DNA of 34,851 bases from a filamentous cyanobacterium CCP3 (GTDB lineage Bacteria; Cyanobacteriota; Cyanobacteriia; Phormidesmidales; Phormidesmidaceae). The notes under the pieces are model-generated. The model was not told the origin of the DNA, ran no database searches, and saw only the letters and a program-made list of their open reading frames with translations. This document shows, one piece after another, positions 1,416 through 11,284 of this stretch. The translations under genes were made by a program, and so were the position numbers. How positions within the stretch are numbered: the first letter of the stretch is position 1; the number at the start of each line of letters is the position of its first letter. The stretch is from assembly GCA_003022385.1 (NCBI GenBank), contig PYGV01000023.1, forward strand, positions 1 to 34,851. Direction: 5' to 3'.

Positions 1416-1465
1416 GGACGACTTTCGGTATAACCACCCCTGGCGAGGGTGATATGTAACGTTGG

Positions 1466-1503
1466 TTCTGGCTAACTACCCTGCTGCAGGGTGTTAGCCA
1501 GAA
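1466..1503. repeat. Compact hairpin carrying att-like core boxes
   Basis: The left arm 1466-1483 pairs with 1487-1503 over 17 bp, with one extrahelical T (1477) and a 3-nt loop. The stem contains GGCTAAC (1470-1476) and its complement GTTAGCC (1493-1499), so it looks like an attC reduced to its ends. CTAACTAC (1472-1479) can instead pair with GTAGTTAG (1530-1537), which would give a 70-bp attC-like fold ending in GTTAGAC. No T-run follows, so it is a poor intrinsic terminator. Confidence 0.55.
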
Positions 1504-1598
1504 TTGAGAAAGGAAAGTCAGCATAAGCAGTAGTTAGACAGCTAATTCGTAACTCTTTCCAGTCTTTACTATCTAGTCTCAAAAAAATGAGGTGATAT

Positions 1599-2249
1599 AT
1601 GGTTTCTTTACGTCTTCAGGAATTCTTAGATGCGAAGGGTTTAACGATAGCTGAATTGTCTCAAATAACCGGCATTAGTGAAAATTTGTTACAGGCATAC
1701 GTTCAAAATTCTATTGAGCTTAATACAGAGAATGCTGAAAATTTTAGAAAGATTGCTGCCAGGTTGAATGTTCCTGTTGCCAAATTGATTCGACCATCGC
1801 ATAAACAAGCAGGGGTTAGTTTCAAGATCGTAGAAAAAGCTAAAAGTCAAGGATTAGATCTTACTGATCTTTCGGAGCGATCTAATACCCATCCATTGAT
1901 TTTGGCAATTTATAGCACTCAGGTGCTACTGAAAGATAAATGGGCAGAAGCACAAACACAGGACAATATTCATCGTATTGCAACAGAATTAAACAGCACA
2001 CCGCAAGAACTAGTAGTGGTTAAGGATCCTCCAATTACTCAACTACGAATGGGAGACTTTTTGCAGGAAAAGGGATTGTCATTAGAAGAACTGAGTCTAC
2101 TTTCTAATATTCCAGTAGAAGCACTTGATCTTTTAGTCTCGCAGCCTTTTGATCTTACGAGCTTTAGAGATCTCGAAAGAGATTGGATTCTTTGGCCATC
2201 TTTTTGTTGTGAATATCTTTGGTGCTGTAGAAGTGAAAGATGGCTGTAG
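1599..2249 (+). CDS. Three-repeat helix-turn-helix protein, probably the 5' part of a split gene
   Basis: This cassette-1 ORF has a good ribosome site (GAGGTGA, 7 nt before the ATG). It contains three XRE-like HTH repeats of about 72 residues. The recognisable cores are LQEFLDAKGLTIAELSQITGI, then KSQGLDLTDLSERSNTHP, then LQEKGLSLEELSLLSNIPVE. Repeats 1 and 2 end in similar helices (FRKIAARLNVP, IHRIATELNST). Repeat 3 instead runs into a Trp/Cys-rich tail after about residue 185. The matching helix (LRALEISKEIG) is encoded in another frame from 2155, which indicates a frameshift near 2150-2160. The ORF overlaps the next gene by 10 nt. The region is visibly AT-rich. The ligand or DNA target is unknown. 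Confidence 0.6.
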   Translation: MVSLRLQEFLDAKGLTIAELSQITGISENLLQAYVQNSIELNTENAENFRKIAARLNVPVAKLIRPSHKQAGVSFKIVEKAKSQGLDLTDLSERSNTHPLILAIYSTQVLLKDKWAEAQTQDNIHRIATELNSTPQELVVVKDPPITQLRMGDFLQEKGLSLEELSLLSNIPVEALDLLVSQPFDLTSFRDLERDWILWPSFCCEYLWCCRSERWL

Positions 2250-2261
2250 AAGTGAAAGACG
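2224..2261 (+). repeat. 19-bp tandem duplication at the ORF junction
   Basis: GCTGTAGAAGTGAAAGATG (2224-2242) is immediately repeated at 2243-2261 with one mismatch (CG for TG at the end). Both copies encode AVEVKD, but in different frames. The first copy is in frame with the displaced end of HTH repeat 3, the second with the downstream ORF. Since 19 is not a multiple of three, the duplication shifts the frame. The junction also supplies the ATG (2240-2242) used as start of the downstream ORF. Confidence 0.85.
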
Positions 2262-4186
2262 ATGTAATAGCTCACAAAAAAGAACAGCTTAAATTTTCCT
2301 TTAAAAGGAGAATCGTAGGGGTAGTTCTAGCAAGCTTAGGTGTGCTATCAGCTTCATTGTTTAGCTTTGTCGCTTTTCTTTCAGTCGGACTAGTTTTAAT
2401 TCAAAATTACGACTTTAAATCTATTTCTGAAGCTGGGCTTTCTGGATTAATAGGATTCGCCTTACTTATATTCATTTATGTAGTGACTACTGTCCTTCCT
2501 GGTTTTATCGGATTTAGAGTATTTTCTGGCACTACTGTAGCAATCTGTGCTGCTTGTTTTGGATTTGTTAGCTATTTTGGTTTCTTATTACATTTAAAGG
2601 ACTTAAGTAGCCCCTTTCTGCTTGTAGTCTTGGGAATATTAATTGGCTGGATAGGTGAGTTTATATCATCCGTTAGTATTGTTCTTGTCTACTCTTTTTG
2701 GAAATCAACCGGAGTTTTTCTATCAATATTTTTCTCTGGCCTTTCATCTGCATTTTTTGTGAAAGATATGTCGGTTAGGCAAGGAGTAACTAGCGTTGAT
2801 ATATTGCTCTCATTTACAGGTATTACGCTCAATTTGATATCAGTATTTATAATTTCTCGGAGGGCAATTAGAGAGGAAAAAGACTTTGCTTGGTTTCGTG
2901 AGCAGGCAATATTTTTATCAAGTTTTTGGAATATTTCATTCTATAAGCAAGACCTTACAGATCAAAGCCTTGACGACCTGGATCTTAGCCATGTTGATTT
3001 CCGAGAGGCAAAAATTCACCATACAAGTTTTAGAGGTGCTAGAAACCTTGAATTTGCTCGTCTCCAAGGAACTATCTTGGCAGATCTTAAAGTACGAAAA
3101 TTACTGACTACATCAGAAGAGAGCGAACCTTCTGACAAGAACTTTAGTCATCTTAATTTAGTAGGCGCAAACCTAAGCAATTTAAATCTAGCAGGGACAG
3201 ACTTTACAGGTGCAAATTTAGCAAATGTAGATTTTAGTAAATCGAACTTAGCTGGAGCTGATTTTACAAATGCCCAGCTTTTTAATACTAATTTTTCTGA
3301 TGCCTGCTTAACTGAAGCTTGTATCTGTGATTGGGCTATAAATCATCAAACTCGCTTTGAAAATACGAAGTGTGATTGGGTCTACTTAAAAAGAGGGAAG
3401 TTTGGCCCATTAGAAAAAAAACCTGATTTTGGCGAATTTAAACCTGGCGAATTTGAAAAATGGATCAGGCAATTACAAGACACAATAGATATAATTTTGC
3501 GAGAACAACCAAATGTTCGAGCTTTGATTAGAGCCATTGAGAAGGTTGCATACAGTTCTGGAGGGCTTGATCCTTCACGATTTAGTATAGAAAGTAAAGG
3601 AGAAAATCTATATGTCGCAAGAGTAGGAACAGCTCCCGAAGCTGATAAGGCTGAACTTTCTAATACAATCATTGTCAATTACAACTCAATAAACGAGTTG
3701 ATGATACAAGGGGAGAGTAACCGTTTATTTTTAAATCCTGGAGGAGGCTATATGGAAACTCAAAATCAGAATATCAGTGCCGGTGGAAACCTTGATATGT
3801 CTAGTGGAACAAGGGTTAACATTGAAGGGGATATTACAGGCTCTAGTATTACCCTTGGTGATCTGAATGGTCAAGTTTCTAACACTATTCAGTCTATTCG
3901 GGATATTGAAGGAGATAACCAGAATCTTGCAGAAATCCTTGGAGCTTTACAGTCAGCTATTAATAATGATCAGGCTTTATCTGAATCGCAAAAGCTTCAG
4001 GCTATGGAGGCAGTAGCAACTTTGGCAGAGGAATCACAAAAACCCAAAGAACAGAGGCTACCTAAAATTTGTTCAATGGCAATGAATGCACTTAAGGGCA
4101 TAACTAGTACTCTCACAGATGCCAGTAAGTTAGCTGATCTGCTGAAAACTCATCTGCCAACCCTAATTAAGTTGTTGGGGCTATAA
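2240..4186 (+). CDS. Multi-pass membrane protein with pentapeptide repeats
   Basis: This 648-aa product of cassette 1 begins with a basic segment (FKRR). About six hydrophobic segments follow between residues 20 and 205. A pentapeptide-repeat region spans about 232-280 and 303-352 (for example NLSNLNLAGTDFTGANL), with the A(D/N)LXX pattern that forms a right-handed quadrilateral beta-helix. The C-terminal half is soluble, with a GDITGSSITLGDLNGQ-type stretch (about 545) and a terminal helical bundle (about 565-648). The reading frame is continuous with the preceding three-HTH ORF if one 19-bp copy is removed and an upstream frameshift repaired. The ancestral product was therefore probably one long HTH-membrane-pentapeptide protein. 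Function is unknown; a sensor or defence role is speculation. Confidence 0.75.
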   Translation: MAVEVKDDVIAHKKEQLKFSFKRRIVGVVLASLGVLSASLFSFVAFLSVGLVLIQNYDFKSISEAGLSGLIGFALLIFIYVVTTVLPGFIGFRVFSGTTVAICAACFGFVSYFGFLLHLKDLSSPFLLVVLGILIGWIGEFISSVSIVLVYSFWKSTGVFLSIFFSGLSSAFFVKDMSVRQGVTSVDILLSFTGITLNLISVFIISRRAIREEKDFAWFREQAIFLSSFWNISFYKQDLTDQSLDDLDLSHVDFREAKIHHTSFRGARNLEFARLQGTILADLKVRKLLTTSEESEPSDKNFSHLNLVGANLSNLNLAGTDFTGANLANVDFSKSNLAGADFTNAQLFNTNFSDACLTEACICDWAINHQTRFENTKCDWVYLKRGKFGPLEKKPDFGEFKPGEFEKWIRQLQDTIDIILREQPNVRALIRAIEKVAYSSGGLDPSRFSIESKGENLYVARVGTAPEADKAELSNTIIVNYNSINELMIQGESNRLFLNPGGGYMETQNQNISAGGNLDMSSGTRVNIEGDITGSSITLGDLNGQVSNTIQSIRDIEGDNQNLAEILGALQSAINNDQALSESQKLQAMEAVATLAEESQKPKEQRLPKICSMAMNALKGITSTLTDASKLADLLKTHLPTLIKLLGL

Positions 4187-4218
4187 GTTTTAGGCGTTAA
4201 GTATGCGTAGATGTGGCT

Positions 4219-4305
4219 ATCTAACAACCCCGCTGCACCGGAACGAAGTCAGGTTTTCAGCAAGATGCAAAAGTTATCTGCGTCCGGTGAGCGGGAACGT
4301 TATCT
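4219..4305 (+). other. attC site 1 (87 bp)
   Basis: R'' is ATCTAAC (4219-4225) and R' is GTTATCT (4299-4305). The left arm CCCGCT-G-CACCGGA (4229-4242) pairs with TCCGGTGAGCGGG (4283-4295) over 13 bp, leaving a single extrahelical G at 4235 in the left arm, the asymmetry known from attC sites. The apical part (4243-4282) is variable. The cut at G4299^T4300 closes cassette 1. A 78-aa ORF across this site is ignored because it merely crosses the recombination site. Confidence 0.85.
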
Positions 4306-4411: not shown

Positions 4412-4849
4412 ATGCCTGGTTCAGCTTCGTTTAGGATAGTTGTCGATACCAATGTCGTTTTTGAAGGTCTGACCAAGCAAGGCAGGGCTTCAGGCTTAAT
4501 TGTTGATGCTTGGTTGGCTGGTCTGATGGTAGTTTGTGTCTCCAATGCGCTGGCCTATGAATATAGTGACGTGCTGTCTCGCAAGCTATCAGAGGAACGG
4601 TGGAGCAGAGTAAAGCCCGTGTTGGGGCAACTCCTGAGTATTGCTCAATACACCAACATTTATTTTTCGTGGCGACCGACTTCTCCAGACGCAGGGGACG
4701 ATCTCGTGATCGATTGTGCGATGAATGCAGGTGCGATCGTGGTTACGTCTAATATTAGAGATTTCCAGAAGGCAAAAGAGTCGCTGGGGCTGCAAGTTTT
4801 AACCCCTGTGCAATTTGTAGAGGTATTAGCATCAGGAGGAAAATCATGA
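4412..4849 (+). CDS. PIN-domain ribonuclease toxin (COG1569-like)
   Basis: This 145-aa PIN-domain protein is predicted to be the RNase toxin of a toxin-antitoxin pair. The acidic metal-binding residues are visible: D12 in VVDTNV, E50 in ALAYEYSDVL, D97/D101 in DDLVIDCAMNAGA and D117 in TSNIRDF. The Asp-Thr-Asn start and the SNALAYEY segment are typical of the COG1569 subfamily. Its stop overlaps the next start (ATGA at 4846-4849), so the two genes are translationally coupled. The order is toxin first, antitoxin second. The pair is the sole content of cassette 2. Such pairs in sedentary integrons are thought to stabilise the array by addiction. Confidence 0.85.
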   Translation: MPGSASFRIVVDTNVVFEGLTKQGRASGLIVDAWLAGLMVVCVSNALAYEYSDVLSRKLSEERWSRVKPVLGQLLSIAQYTNIYFSWRPTSPDAGDDLVIDCAMNAGAIVVTSNIRDFQKAKESLGLQVLTPVQFVEVLASGGKS

Positions 4850-5187
4850 GCCGATTGACTTTACGATTGCCTGAGACCTTGCATCAACAGCTTGCTCAGC
4901 TTGCTGAAGGTGAGGGGGTGTCGCTAAATCAGTACATTGTCTATGCCTTGACCCGCCAAGCAGCCTTAGCTCCTGCAATTCAAGTCGTCCCTCAACCAGA
5001 AGTTGAGCAACAACAGCAGGCATTCCAGTCTTTGATAAAGCAGTTAGGGCAGGTTTCGTCTGCAGAGGTTGAGTCTGTTTTAGCGGCGCGTGAGCAAACT
5101 GAGCCGGAAGCAGATCTGAGTACAGAGGTCATTGCGCGCCTCAAGGAACAAGTTCAGACAGGCATGAATAAATCAGATCGGAGTTAG
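4846..5187 (+). CDS. Ribbon-helix-helix antitoxin (HicB/Arc-like)
   Basis: This 113-aa partner of the PIN toxin starts with a ribbon-helix-helix fold: the beta strand LTLRLP followed by ETLHQQLAQLAEGEGVSLN and a second helix QYIVYALTRQ. It would bind DNA as a dimer through the strand. The rest (about 50-113) is a Gln/Glu-rich toxin-binding tail. It is preceded by AGGAGG inside the end of the toxin gene, which together with the ATGA overlap fixes the start. attC site 2 begins 9 nt after the stop codon, as expected for a compact cassette. Confidence 0.8.
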   Translation: MSRLTLRLPETLHQQLAQLAEGEGVSLNQYIVYALTRQAALAPAIQVVPQPEVEQQQQAFQSLIKQLGQVSSAEVESVLAAREQTEPEADLSTEVIARLKEQVQTGMNKSDRS

Positions 5188-5195
5188 CGCCAGCC

Positions 5196-5281
5196 AGATA
5201 ACAAGTCGCCACACTGGAACGGTGAAAAGTAGTTGGTGAGTAGCAAAGGTAGTCTGCGTCCGGTGGGCTTGGTCGTTATGC
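5196..5281 (+). other. attC site 2 (86 bp)
   Basis: R'' is AGATAAC (5196-5202) and R' is GTTATGC (5275-5281). GCC-A-CACTGGA (5208-5218) pairs with TCCGGTGGGC (5259-5268), including one G-T pair and an extrahelical A at 5211. The inner segment GCAAAGGTAGTCTGCGTCC resembles the same part of attC 1 and 3, so the sites form one family. The complement of R'' (GTTATCT) equals the R' sequence that opens cassette 2 at 4299-4305. Confidence 0.85.
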
Positions 5282-10553: not shown

Positions 10554-11225
10554 ATGTCTAATAGCCTGCCTAGCCCAACTGGAATGCGTCGCCAACCGCG
10601 ACAAGCCCGCAGTCAGGAGCGCGTCAACCGGATTCTGGATGTGGCCGAAGCACTGTTTATCGCAGAGGGCTATAACGCTACAACGACCAGTGCGATCGCA
10701 AAGCGCGCCAAGGTCGCGATCGGGTCGCTCTACCAGTTTTTCCCCGACAAGGCAGCCATTTTGCAGGGCTTAGCCCTGCGCTACAGTGACCTTCTCTATC
10801 AGCGACTATCAGAGCCAGCCCCAGAAACCCTGGCCGCCCTACCTCTGGCTGACTATGTGGATCTCATCATTGATACGACCGATCAATTTTTCACGGATTA
10901 CCCTGGCTACTACGCCATTTTTATGCCGCTTCAAGGCACCATGCCAGAGTTGCAGAAGATTGAAGCGGCTGCCGACGCCCAACTGATTCAAGACATGGCC
11001 ACTGAATTGTCTCTGCGCGGTGTGGGGCTAGACGCTGCGGATTATGAGGCGATGGCCTTTGTCCTGGTAAAGGCGATCGGCACATTACTGTGGCTTGCCC
11101 TGGGTCAAGAAAAACCGTTTCGGCAGCGCCTGATGGCAGAAACAAAACGGCTCACTTTACAATACTTGCAAAGCTATTTTTCATCGGATCTAATCCCAGC
11201 TAACGTTCCGGCTGGAGCAGACTGA
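10554..11225 (+). CDS. TetR/AcrR-family transcriptional repressor
   Basis: This 223-aa TetR regulator has an Arg-rich lead (RRQPRQARSQERVNRIL). The HTH spans about 25-70 (ALFIAEGYNATTTSAIAKRAKVAIGSLYQFFPDKAAIL), and a helical ligand domain follows. It is divergent from the coq4-MFS operon, with several TGAGCA-type palindromes between, and so probably controls that operon and itself. Its stop codon (11223-11225) lies inside attC site 5, which begins at 11198. The reading frame therefore runs through the R'' box and left arm of the recombination site. Confidence 0.88.
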   Translation: MSNSLPSPTGMRRQPRQARSQERVNRILDVAEALFIAEGYNATTTSAIAKRAKVAIGSLYQFFPDKAAILQGLALRYSDLLYQRLSEPAPETLAALPLADYVDLIIDTTDQFFTDYPGYYAIFMPLQGTMPELQKIEAAADAQLIQDMATELSLRGVGLDAADYEAMAFVLVKAIGTLLWLALGQEKPFRQRLMAETKRLTLQYLQSYFSSDLIPANVPAGAD

Positions 11226-11284
11226 CAACGTTGGTTATGGTTCTAGCTGGGGCTGCTTGCCGCCGCCCAGCTGGAACGTTAGAC
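11198..11284 (+). other. attC site 5 (87 bp), last of the array
   Basis: R'' is AGCTAAC (11198-11204) and R' is GTTAGAC (11278-11284), a perfect GTTRRRY core. CTAACGTTCC (11200-11209) pairs perfectly with GGAACGTTAG (11273-11282). The stem continues GGCTGG (11210-11215) with CCAGCT (11267-11272), one G-T pair included, with an extrahelical A at 11216. The complement of R'' (GTTAGCT) equals the R' that opens cassette 4 at 7335 and also the lone box at 8069. This is the strongest hairpin of the array. The tetR stop codon lies inside it. Confidence 0.88.

Follow-up and report, generated by a model that had tools for sequence, protein, structure and literature searches.

A cyanobacterial integron cassette that pairs a triple-HTH protein gene with a membrane pentapeptide protein gene

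Near one end of contig C294, from the 5.8 Mb genome of the filamentous cyanobacterium CCP3, a stretch of AT-rich DNA encodes HTH repeats, membrane helices and pentapeptide repeats, raising the question of whether this is one broken gene or two complete ones and what its products might do. A preliminary description of the contig, which was analysed over its full 34,851 nucleotides (the window), placed a single gene at 1599–4186 and considered a defence role worth testing. The coordinates are correct, and the region most probably holds two genes. Their pairing, domain make-up, carriage on a cassette, patchy spread and occupation of a variable site in common with conflict-type peptidase systems emerge from computation. 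As for function, we favour a regulator and a membrane sensor or effector carried as accessory, mobile, conflict-type cargo, a reading given slightly under an even chance; a defence or cell-death role for the pair is plausible in view of the chromosomal site that it often occupies, which in other genomes carries caspase- and protease-type conflict genes.

The integron and the two genes of its first cassette

An apparently intact gene for an integron integrase, IntI (321 aa), lies on the minus strand at 206–1171 (TIGR02249, 469.8 bits against a cut-off of 265); all other features given here are on the plus strand. Just outside the integron, positions 1–75 match the 3′ end of a group II intron, in the domain V/VI region (Rfam RF00029, 60.6 bits). 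From the position of the integrase and the presence of a GTT core, the attI core is likely to reside at 1451–1467, with GTTGGTT at 1461–1467 as the putative junction, which would therefore place cassette 1 at 1462–4299, between this core and its attC. That attC (4216–4305, stem score 13) has a fold z of −2.69, bettered by only 3 of 200 shuffles, and can be aligned with three other attC sites of the same genome. A scan for paired attC-like boxes returned two sites in the window at a score where shuffled sequence averages 0.1 matches per shuffle (stem score at least 12). A strict scan for attC cores was empty, since those of this integron differ from the canonical form, and the sites described come from a relaxed core scan. 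With an integrase, an inferred attI and an attC 3′ of the coding region, the locus has the components of an integron gene cassette, as the preliminary description had proposed, and the integron is best read as a chromosomal one.

Cassette 2 encodes a toxin-like PIN-domain protein (4412–4849; PIN_3, 67.5 bits) and a HicB/RHH-type antitoxin-like protein (4846–5187; HicB, 38.2 bits), and the neighbours of cassette 1 in the window are accordingly the integrase, PIN and RHH genes. Its attC (5196–5281) is recognised by alignment with that of cassette 1 and with attC sites on contig C223, its own fold having a z short of significance. Further along the window, an attC-like site with a perfect GTTAGAC core (11201–11281) overlaps the 3′ end of a TetR-type gene (10554–11225), and may indicate a cassette array reaching this far or a solitary site. 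Contig C223 of the same genome carries a second piece of cassette array, with attC sites related to that of cassette 1 at 1502–1581 and 2445–2525 among a NUDIX-type gene, an unknown gene of 263 aa and a PIN-like gene.

The leader of cassette 1, upstream of the first gene, contains a near-perfect hairpin (1466–1503) with a DNA fold z of −5.67, equalled in none of 200 shuffles. Possibly it serves as an operator or a structural element; no second good copy was found across the genome. G+C content is about 0.36–0.38 across the coding region, against 0.52–0.64 in most of the window past 10.5 kb, and the proposal that the region is AT-rich and came from another source by horizontal transfer holds up.

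The coding region consists of two open reading frames in different frames, ORF1 (1599–2249, 216 aa) and ORF2 (2240–4186, 648 aa), which overlap by 10 bases (2240–2249). Conceivably, these could be the halves of one gene split by frameshifts, whether as a pseudogene or through sequencing error. The overlap coincides with a 17-nt direct repeat at 19-nt spacing (2224–2259) that extends across the ORF1 stop and the ORF2 start, with the ORF2 start codon where one copy meets the other, the kind of place where frames shift; furthermore, the third HTH repeat of ORF1 is truncated. Yet at 15 loci besides the window, drawn from a 77-locus alignment-based scan of species genomes together with further Nostocaceae genomes, the HTH and pentapeptide genes are adjacent and separate, and they are fused at none. 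These loci span Nostocaceae, Microcoleus, Laspinema, Phormidium and Pseudanabaena, and one resides on a plasmid: in Nostoc N6, pNPM4 carries an HTH gene (238 aa), 15 bases and then a pentapeptide gene (671 aa), an order repeated in Desmonostoc. The ORF1 homologues likewise have a short third repeat and a Cys-rich tail, and conservation of this tail at their ends indicates that ORF1 ends at its proper place. On these homologues a single frameshifted gene was rejected, and a split gene of any origin is very improbable; the homologues support the strong inference that ORF1 and ORF2 are two complete genes. In place of the joined, membrane-tethered HTH protein of the preliminary description there would be two proteins, which could interact.

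Architecture of the two proteins

ORF1 is predicted to encode a soluble protein of DNA-binding type. Xre/Cro-type HTH domains are matched above the Pfam cut-offs (HTH_26, 38.2 bits against 22; HTH_3, 34.8 bits against 23), and the repeats fall at residues of about 1–68, 70–143 and 146–190. The AlphaFold model (pLDDT 84.5, pTM 0.68) displays two full Xre-type repeats and a shortened third, in agreement with the three HTH-like repeats first described, and the third is short in the homologues as well. The top Foldseek matches are Xre regulators (SaPI2 Stl, CylR2 and SinR among them), each spanning about one repeat, and the best E value, 8.5e-4, applies to 75 columns only.

Beyond the repeats is a feature absent from the preliminary description, a Cys-rich tail (FCCEYLWCCRSERWL, 2205–2228) containing C203, C204, C209 and C210. 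These four cysteines lie within the last 14 residues of ORF1, which has none elsewhere. Two to six cysteines occur in the last 24 residues of 16 of the 17 homologues, and over all of them this segment holds 50 cysteines against 33 in all the rest, an enrichment reached in 0 of 2000 shuffles among homologues that are not independent. The tail is encoded in all 17; in the homologous operon of Desmonostoc, the HTH gene stops early and the tail lies behind the premature stop. In that of Nostoc CHAB 5715, it is the pentapeptide gene that is split.

The AlphaFold model of ORF2 (pLDDT 73.2, pTM 0.53) comprises a helical membrane part, modelled with middling confidence, followed by a beta-helix, an alpha/beta domain and, after a disordered stretch, a terminal domain of five helices. 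Hydropathy, K/R counts and the helices of the model together predict six transmembrane segments within residues 36–206 (2345–2857), matching the number of about six expected beforehand. Positively charged residues precede the first hydrophobic segment and follow the last, and both ends of the protein are therefore predicted to be inside, which would put the beta-helix on the cytosolic side. The beta-helix itself, at residues of about 233–380 (2936–3379), is secure: PF00805 scores 64.9 bits, Foldseek returns HetL, MfpA and QnrB1, and the protein has the at least eight tandem A(D/N)LXX repeats and the right-handed beta-helix that define the pentapeptide repeat superfamily. The helical C-terminal domain also noted at the outset appears in the model as five helices (residues about 539–645; 3854–4174), and is widespread in cyanobacterial relatives. 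Among relatives of ORF2 in related genomes that lack an HTH partner, the membrane regions are built from low-complexity repeats of Ala/Val/Gly or Ala/Val/Phe that vary in length between proteins.

The alpha/beta domain between the beta-helix and the disordered stretch (residues about 381–494; 3380–3721) was not part of the preliminary description and is conserved in the family. No solved structure was found to match it. In the model, residues 415–494 follow a beta-alpha-beta-beta-alpha order, as in an RRM-like fold, and the order of strands and helices from about residue 415 recalls that of bacterial TRADD-N domains, which in cyanobacteria are found alongside pentapeptide repeats (PMC7159879, PMC8195603) and are marked by an RRM-like fold with a conserved Ser between strands 2 and 3. 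A TRADD-N identity, a lead taken from that work, was confirmed by no search, and no TRADD-N entry stood among the sequence or structure matches listed. The C-terminal domain gave a weak match to PDC-M14B (6.1e-5 over about 90 residues), and PDC-M14 was dropped as a clue to this domain after a single weak Nostocaceae match in 60 genomes. No recognised toxin or enzyme domain was detected in ORF1 or ORF2 by the searches made.

Distribution and genomic neighbourhoods

The ORF1 family is rare. In its own order the window stands alone among 63 genomes (0 of 62 others), and full-length matches in a phylum sample of 386 genomes were confined to the window and a single genome of Nostocaceae. Of 217 Nostocaceae species, 12 carry the family or the pair. 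Matches outside the family in a phylum-wide HTH profile search were nearly all single generic Xre domains. By comparison, 43 of these 63 genomes contain relatives of the C-terminal part of ORF2, frequently as multiple copies, and a search with the whole protein found relatives on 41 plasmid records. Patterns built from ORF2 alone detected no relatives in genome and viral contigs, a search of the viral contigs with a closer alignment found none, and no curated family covering the whole architecture was found. In a tree of 34 pentapeptide proteins, those linked to an HTH gene group together, with 3 changes where shuffling leads one to expect 11.7 (none of 500 shuffles as low); two rows in this cluster scored as unlinked, L049 and L053, end at contig ends. 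The window ORF2 lies on a long branch, and no row exceeds 48% identity to it.

These distributions bear on the possibility that the pair is a toxin-antitoxin-like addiction module, in which the Xre protein would repress or neutralise a membrane protein that is harmful when unchecked. In its favour, the regulator gene comes first and overlaps the membrane gene behind it; modules of this kind abound in integron arrays, the adjoining cassette being PIN/RHH, and structure searches liken ORF1 to Xre antitoxins and CapH. Nevertheless, ORF2 is a multi-domain protein of a length far above the usual toxin size, many of its relatives exist without any HTH partner, and no NCBIfam antitoxin model reaches its cut-off, all of which make this reading improbable.

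In Nostocaceae the pair resides mostly between a subtilase (S8) gene and a gene for a 99-residue protein, with glgC next. This arrangement was surveyed in 80 genomes, 37 of which have subtilase and glgC colinear within 8 kb. The interval is 0.5–1.1 kb, an empty site, in 25 of the 37 and exceeds 3.7 kb in 8. Two of these long inserts are the HTH-pentapeptide pair; one contains a CHAT gene, a trypsin-like gene and an HTH-less pentapeptide relative of ORF2; three contain a large gene with a common start, which in the one tested against Pfam encodes caspase, nSTAND1 and WD40 domains and has a Trypco1 gene beside it; one has Pepco and FGE-domain genes; and the last, judged by eye, looks biosynthetic. 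Throughout the interval the gene for the 99-residue protein is constant while the cargo changes. The site is thus variable, and the pair alternates there with conflict-type modules. Because the site otherwise holds caspase, CHAT, trypsin, Trypco1, Pepco and FGE genes, it lends indirect support to the defence idea, with the reading of its contents as conflict cargo made post hoc on 37 genomes.

The surroundings of the pair are different in other lineages: it lies beside glgC in Microcoleus, beside a glycosidase gene in Laspinema and Phormidium, near toxin-antitoxin-like genes in Pseudanabaena, on a plasmid, and in the integron of the window. Within the order to which the window belongs, close relatives of ORF2 that lack an HTH partner lie in divergent orientation to a Trypsin_2-WD40 gene. 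The 103 near neighbours of the wider pentapeptide family include 4 NACHT and 3 CHAT genes, and neither family is among the first 25 listed for 103 distal genes; with related loci and a post hoc comparison, this defence enrichment is suggestive only. The preliminary description had held that homologues in stable contexts would count against its proposal, and here the result is divided: most do occupy one syntenic chromosomal place, but they do so patchily. Their concentration at one site in Nostocaceae may reflect vertical descent with loss instead of frequent transfer.

A pair that senses stress or the state of the envelope, unconnected with defence, would fit part of this picture. ORF2 would then respond to membrane, redox or nutrient state and sequester or release ORF1 in an anti-sigma-like manner. 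A cytosolic beta-helix would suit such a role, as would redox sensing by the Cys tail, and most homologues adjoin glgC and a glycosidase gene. There are also precedents, in that HetL, a pentapeptide protein, binds the regulator HetR (PMC7476756), and the cyanobacterial pentapeptide proteins HglK and RfrA have developmental or transport roles (PMC8145042). The patchy spread, and a variable site in common with caspase, CHAT and trypsin genes, fit accessory cargo better than a housekeeping function, and we consider a sensing pair of this kind rather unlikely.

A possible conflict module and its relation to known systems

If the pair is instead mobile conflict-type cargo, as we favour, ORF1 would be a soluble regulator of three Xre-type HTH repeats and a Cys-rich tail, and ORF2 a six-helix inner-membrane protein holding its beta-helix, alpha/beta and helical domains in the cytosol, where it could act as the membrane-anchored sensor or effector of a defence or cell-death module. 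ORF1 might control the expression or the activity of ORF2, probably binding DNA at the operon promoter and perhaps contacting the cytosolic beta-helix of ORF2, by analogy with the docking of HetL on HetR (PMC7476756). The Cys tail could act as a switch that responds to redox state or metal, or else in docking. In its boldest form, the proposal is that cyanobacteria possess a membrane conflict system of two genes that has not been described before: a triple-HTH protein with a C-terminal Cys switch would control a membrane-anchored pentapeptide scaffold effector, and the module would move among plasmids, integrons and a chromosomal hotspot, where it takes turns with caspase and CHAT systems, and would protect against phage or trigger cell death. 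We regard this version as doubtful.

Xre regulators, like membrane pentapeptide proteins, are an established kind of protein; neither the family libraries nor the literature searched yielded the conserved operon with a Cys-tailed triple-HTH partner. Pentapeptide proteins of cyanobacteria are very numerous and their functions almost all unknown (PMC8145042). One subfamily now gains a dedicated partner gene, a conserved Cys tail and a genomic address in common with caspase and protease conflict modules, and its function thereby becomes directly testable. If the pair is defensive, integron-borne defence would extend to cyanobacteria.

In PADLOC-DB 2.0.0, no model covers ORF1 or ORF2, and the matches are partial and weak. 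The match to capH is weak and generic (E 1.5e-5), and neither the CapP protease nor the CD-NTase expected of a CBASS CapH-CapP locus is among the window neighbours. Each ORF1 repeat has the same fold as SinR, CylR2, SaPI2 Stl and CapH; unlike these regulators, ORF1 has three repeats per chain and a Cys-rich tail. ORF2 likewise falls below the NCBIfam equivalog cut-offs for HetL (50.9 against 260), Alr5209 (57.5 against 125) and Qnr (39.8 against 240).

The pairing of HetL with HetR resembles that of ORF2 with ORF1, in both cases a pentapeptide protein with a DNA-binding regulator. In contrast to ORF2, HetL is soluble and has a single domain, and HetR is not of the Xre type. HglK of Anabaena PCC 7120 is another cyanobacterial protein with N-terminal transmembrane segments and a pentapeptide beta-helix; four segments are predicted in it, and its 36 repeats are C-terminal (PMC8145042). 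ORF2 differs in its six segments, in its internal repeats followed by alpha/beta and helical domains, and in its HTH partner gene, and is not a member of the HglK type, in which the repeats are C-terminal with nothing after them.

The cyanobacterial conflict systems of Kaur et al. include caspase, STAND, trypsin-Trypco and TRADD-N components with pentapeptide repeats (PMC7159879, PMC8195603), and pairings of Trypco1 with trypsin are among their marks (PMC7159879). ORF1-ORF2 is like them in the use of pentapeptide repeats as a scaffold and in the variable chromosomal site; unlike them, its operon contains no NTPase, caspase or EAD. The association with caspase, STAND and trypsin-Trypco genes is found at the Nostocaceae site and is absent from the window. 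The anti-phage cassettes of Vibrio encode different proteins from this large 2.8 kb cassette, and they too are integron cassettes, the present one occupying the first position. Vibrio integrons are established stores of anti-phage cassettes (PMC12409362), which makes a test worthwhile here.
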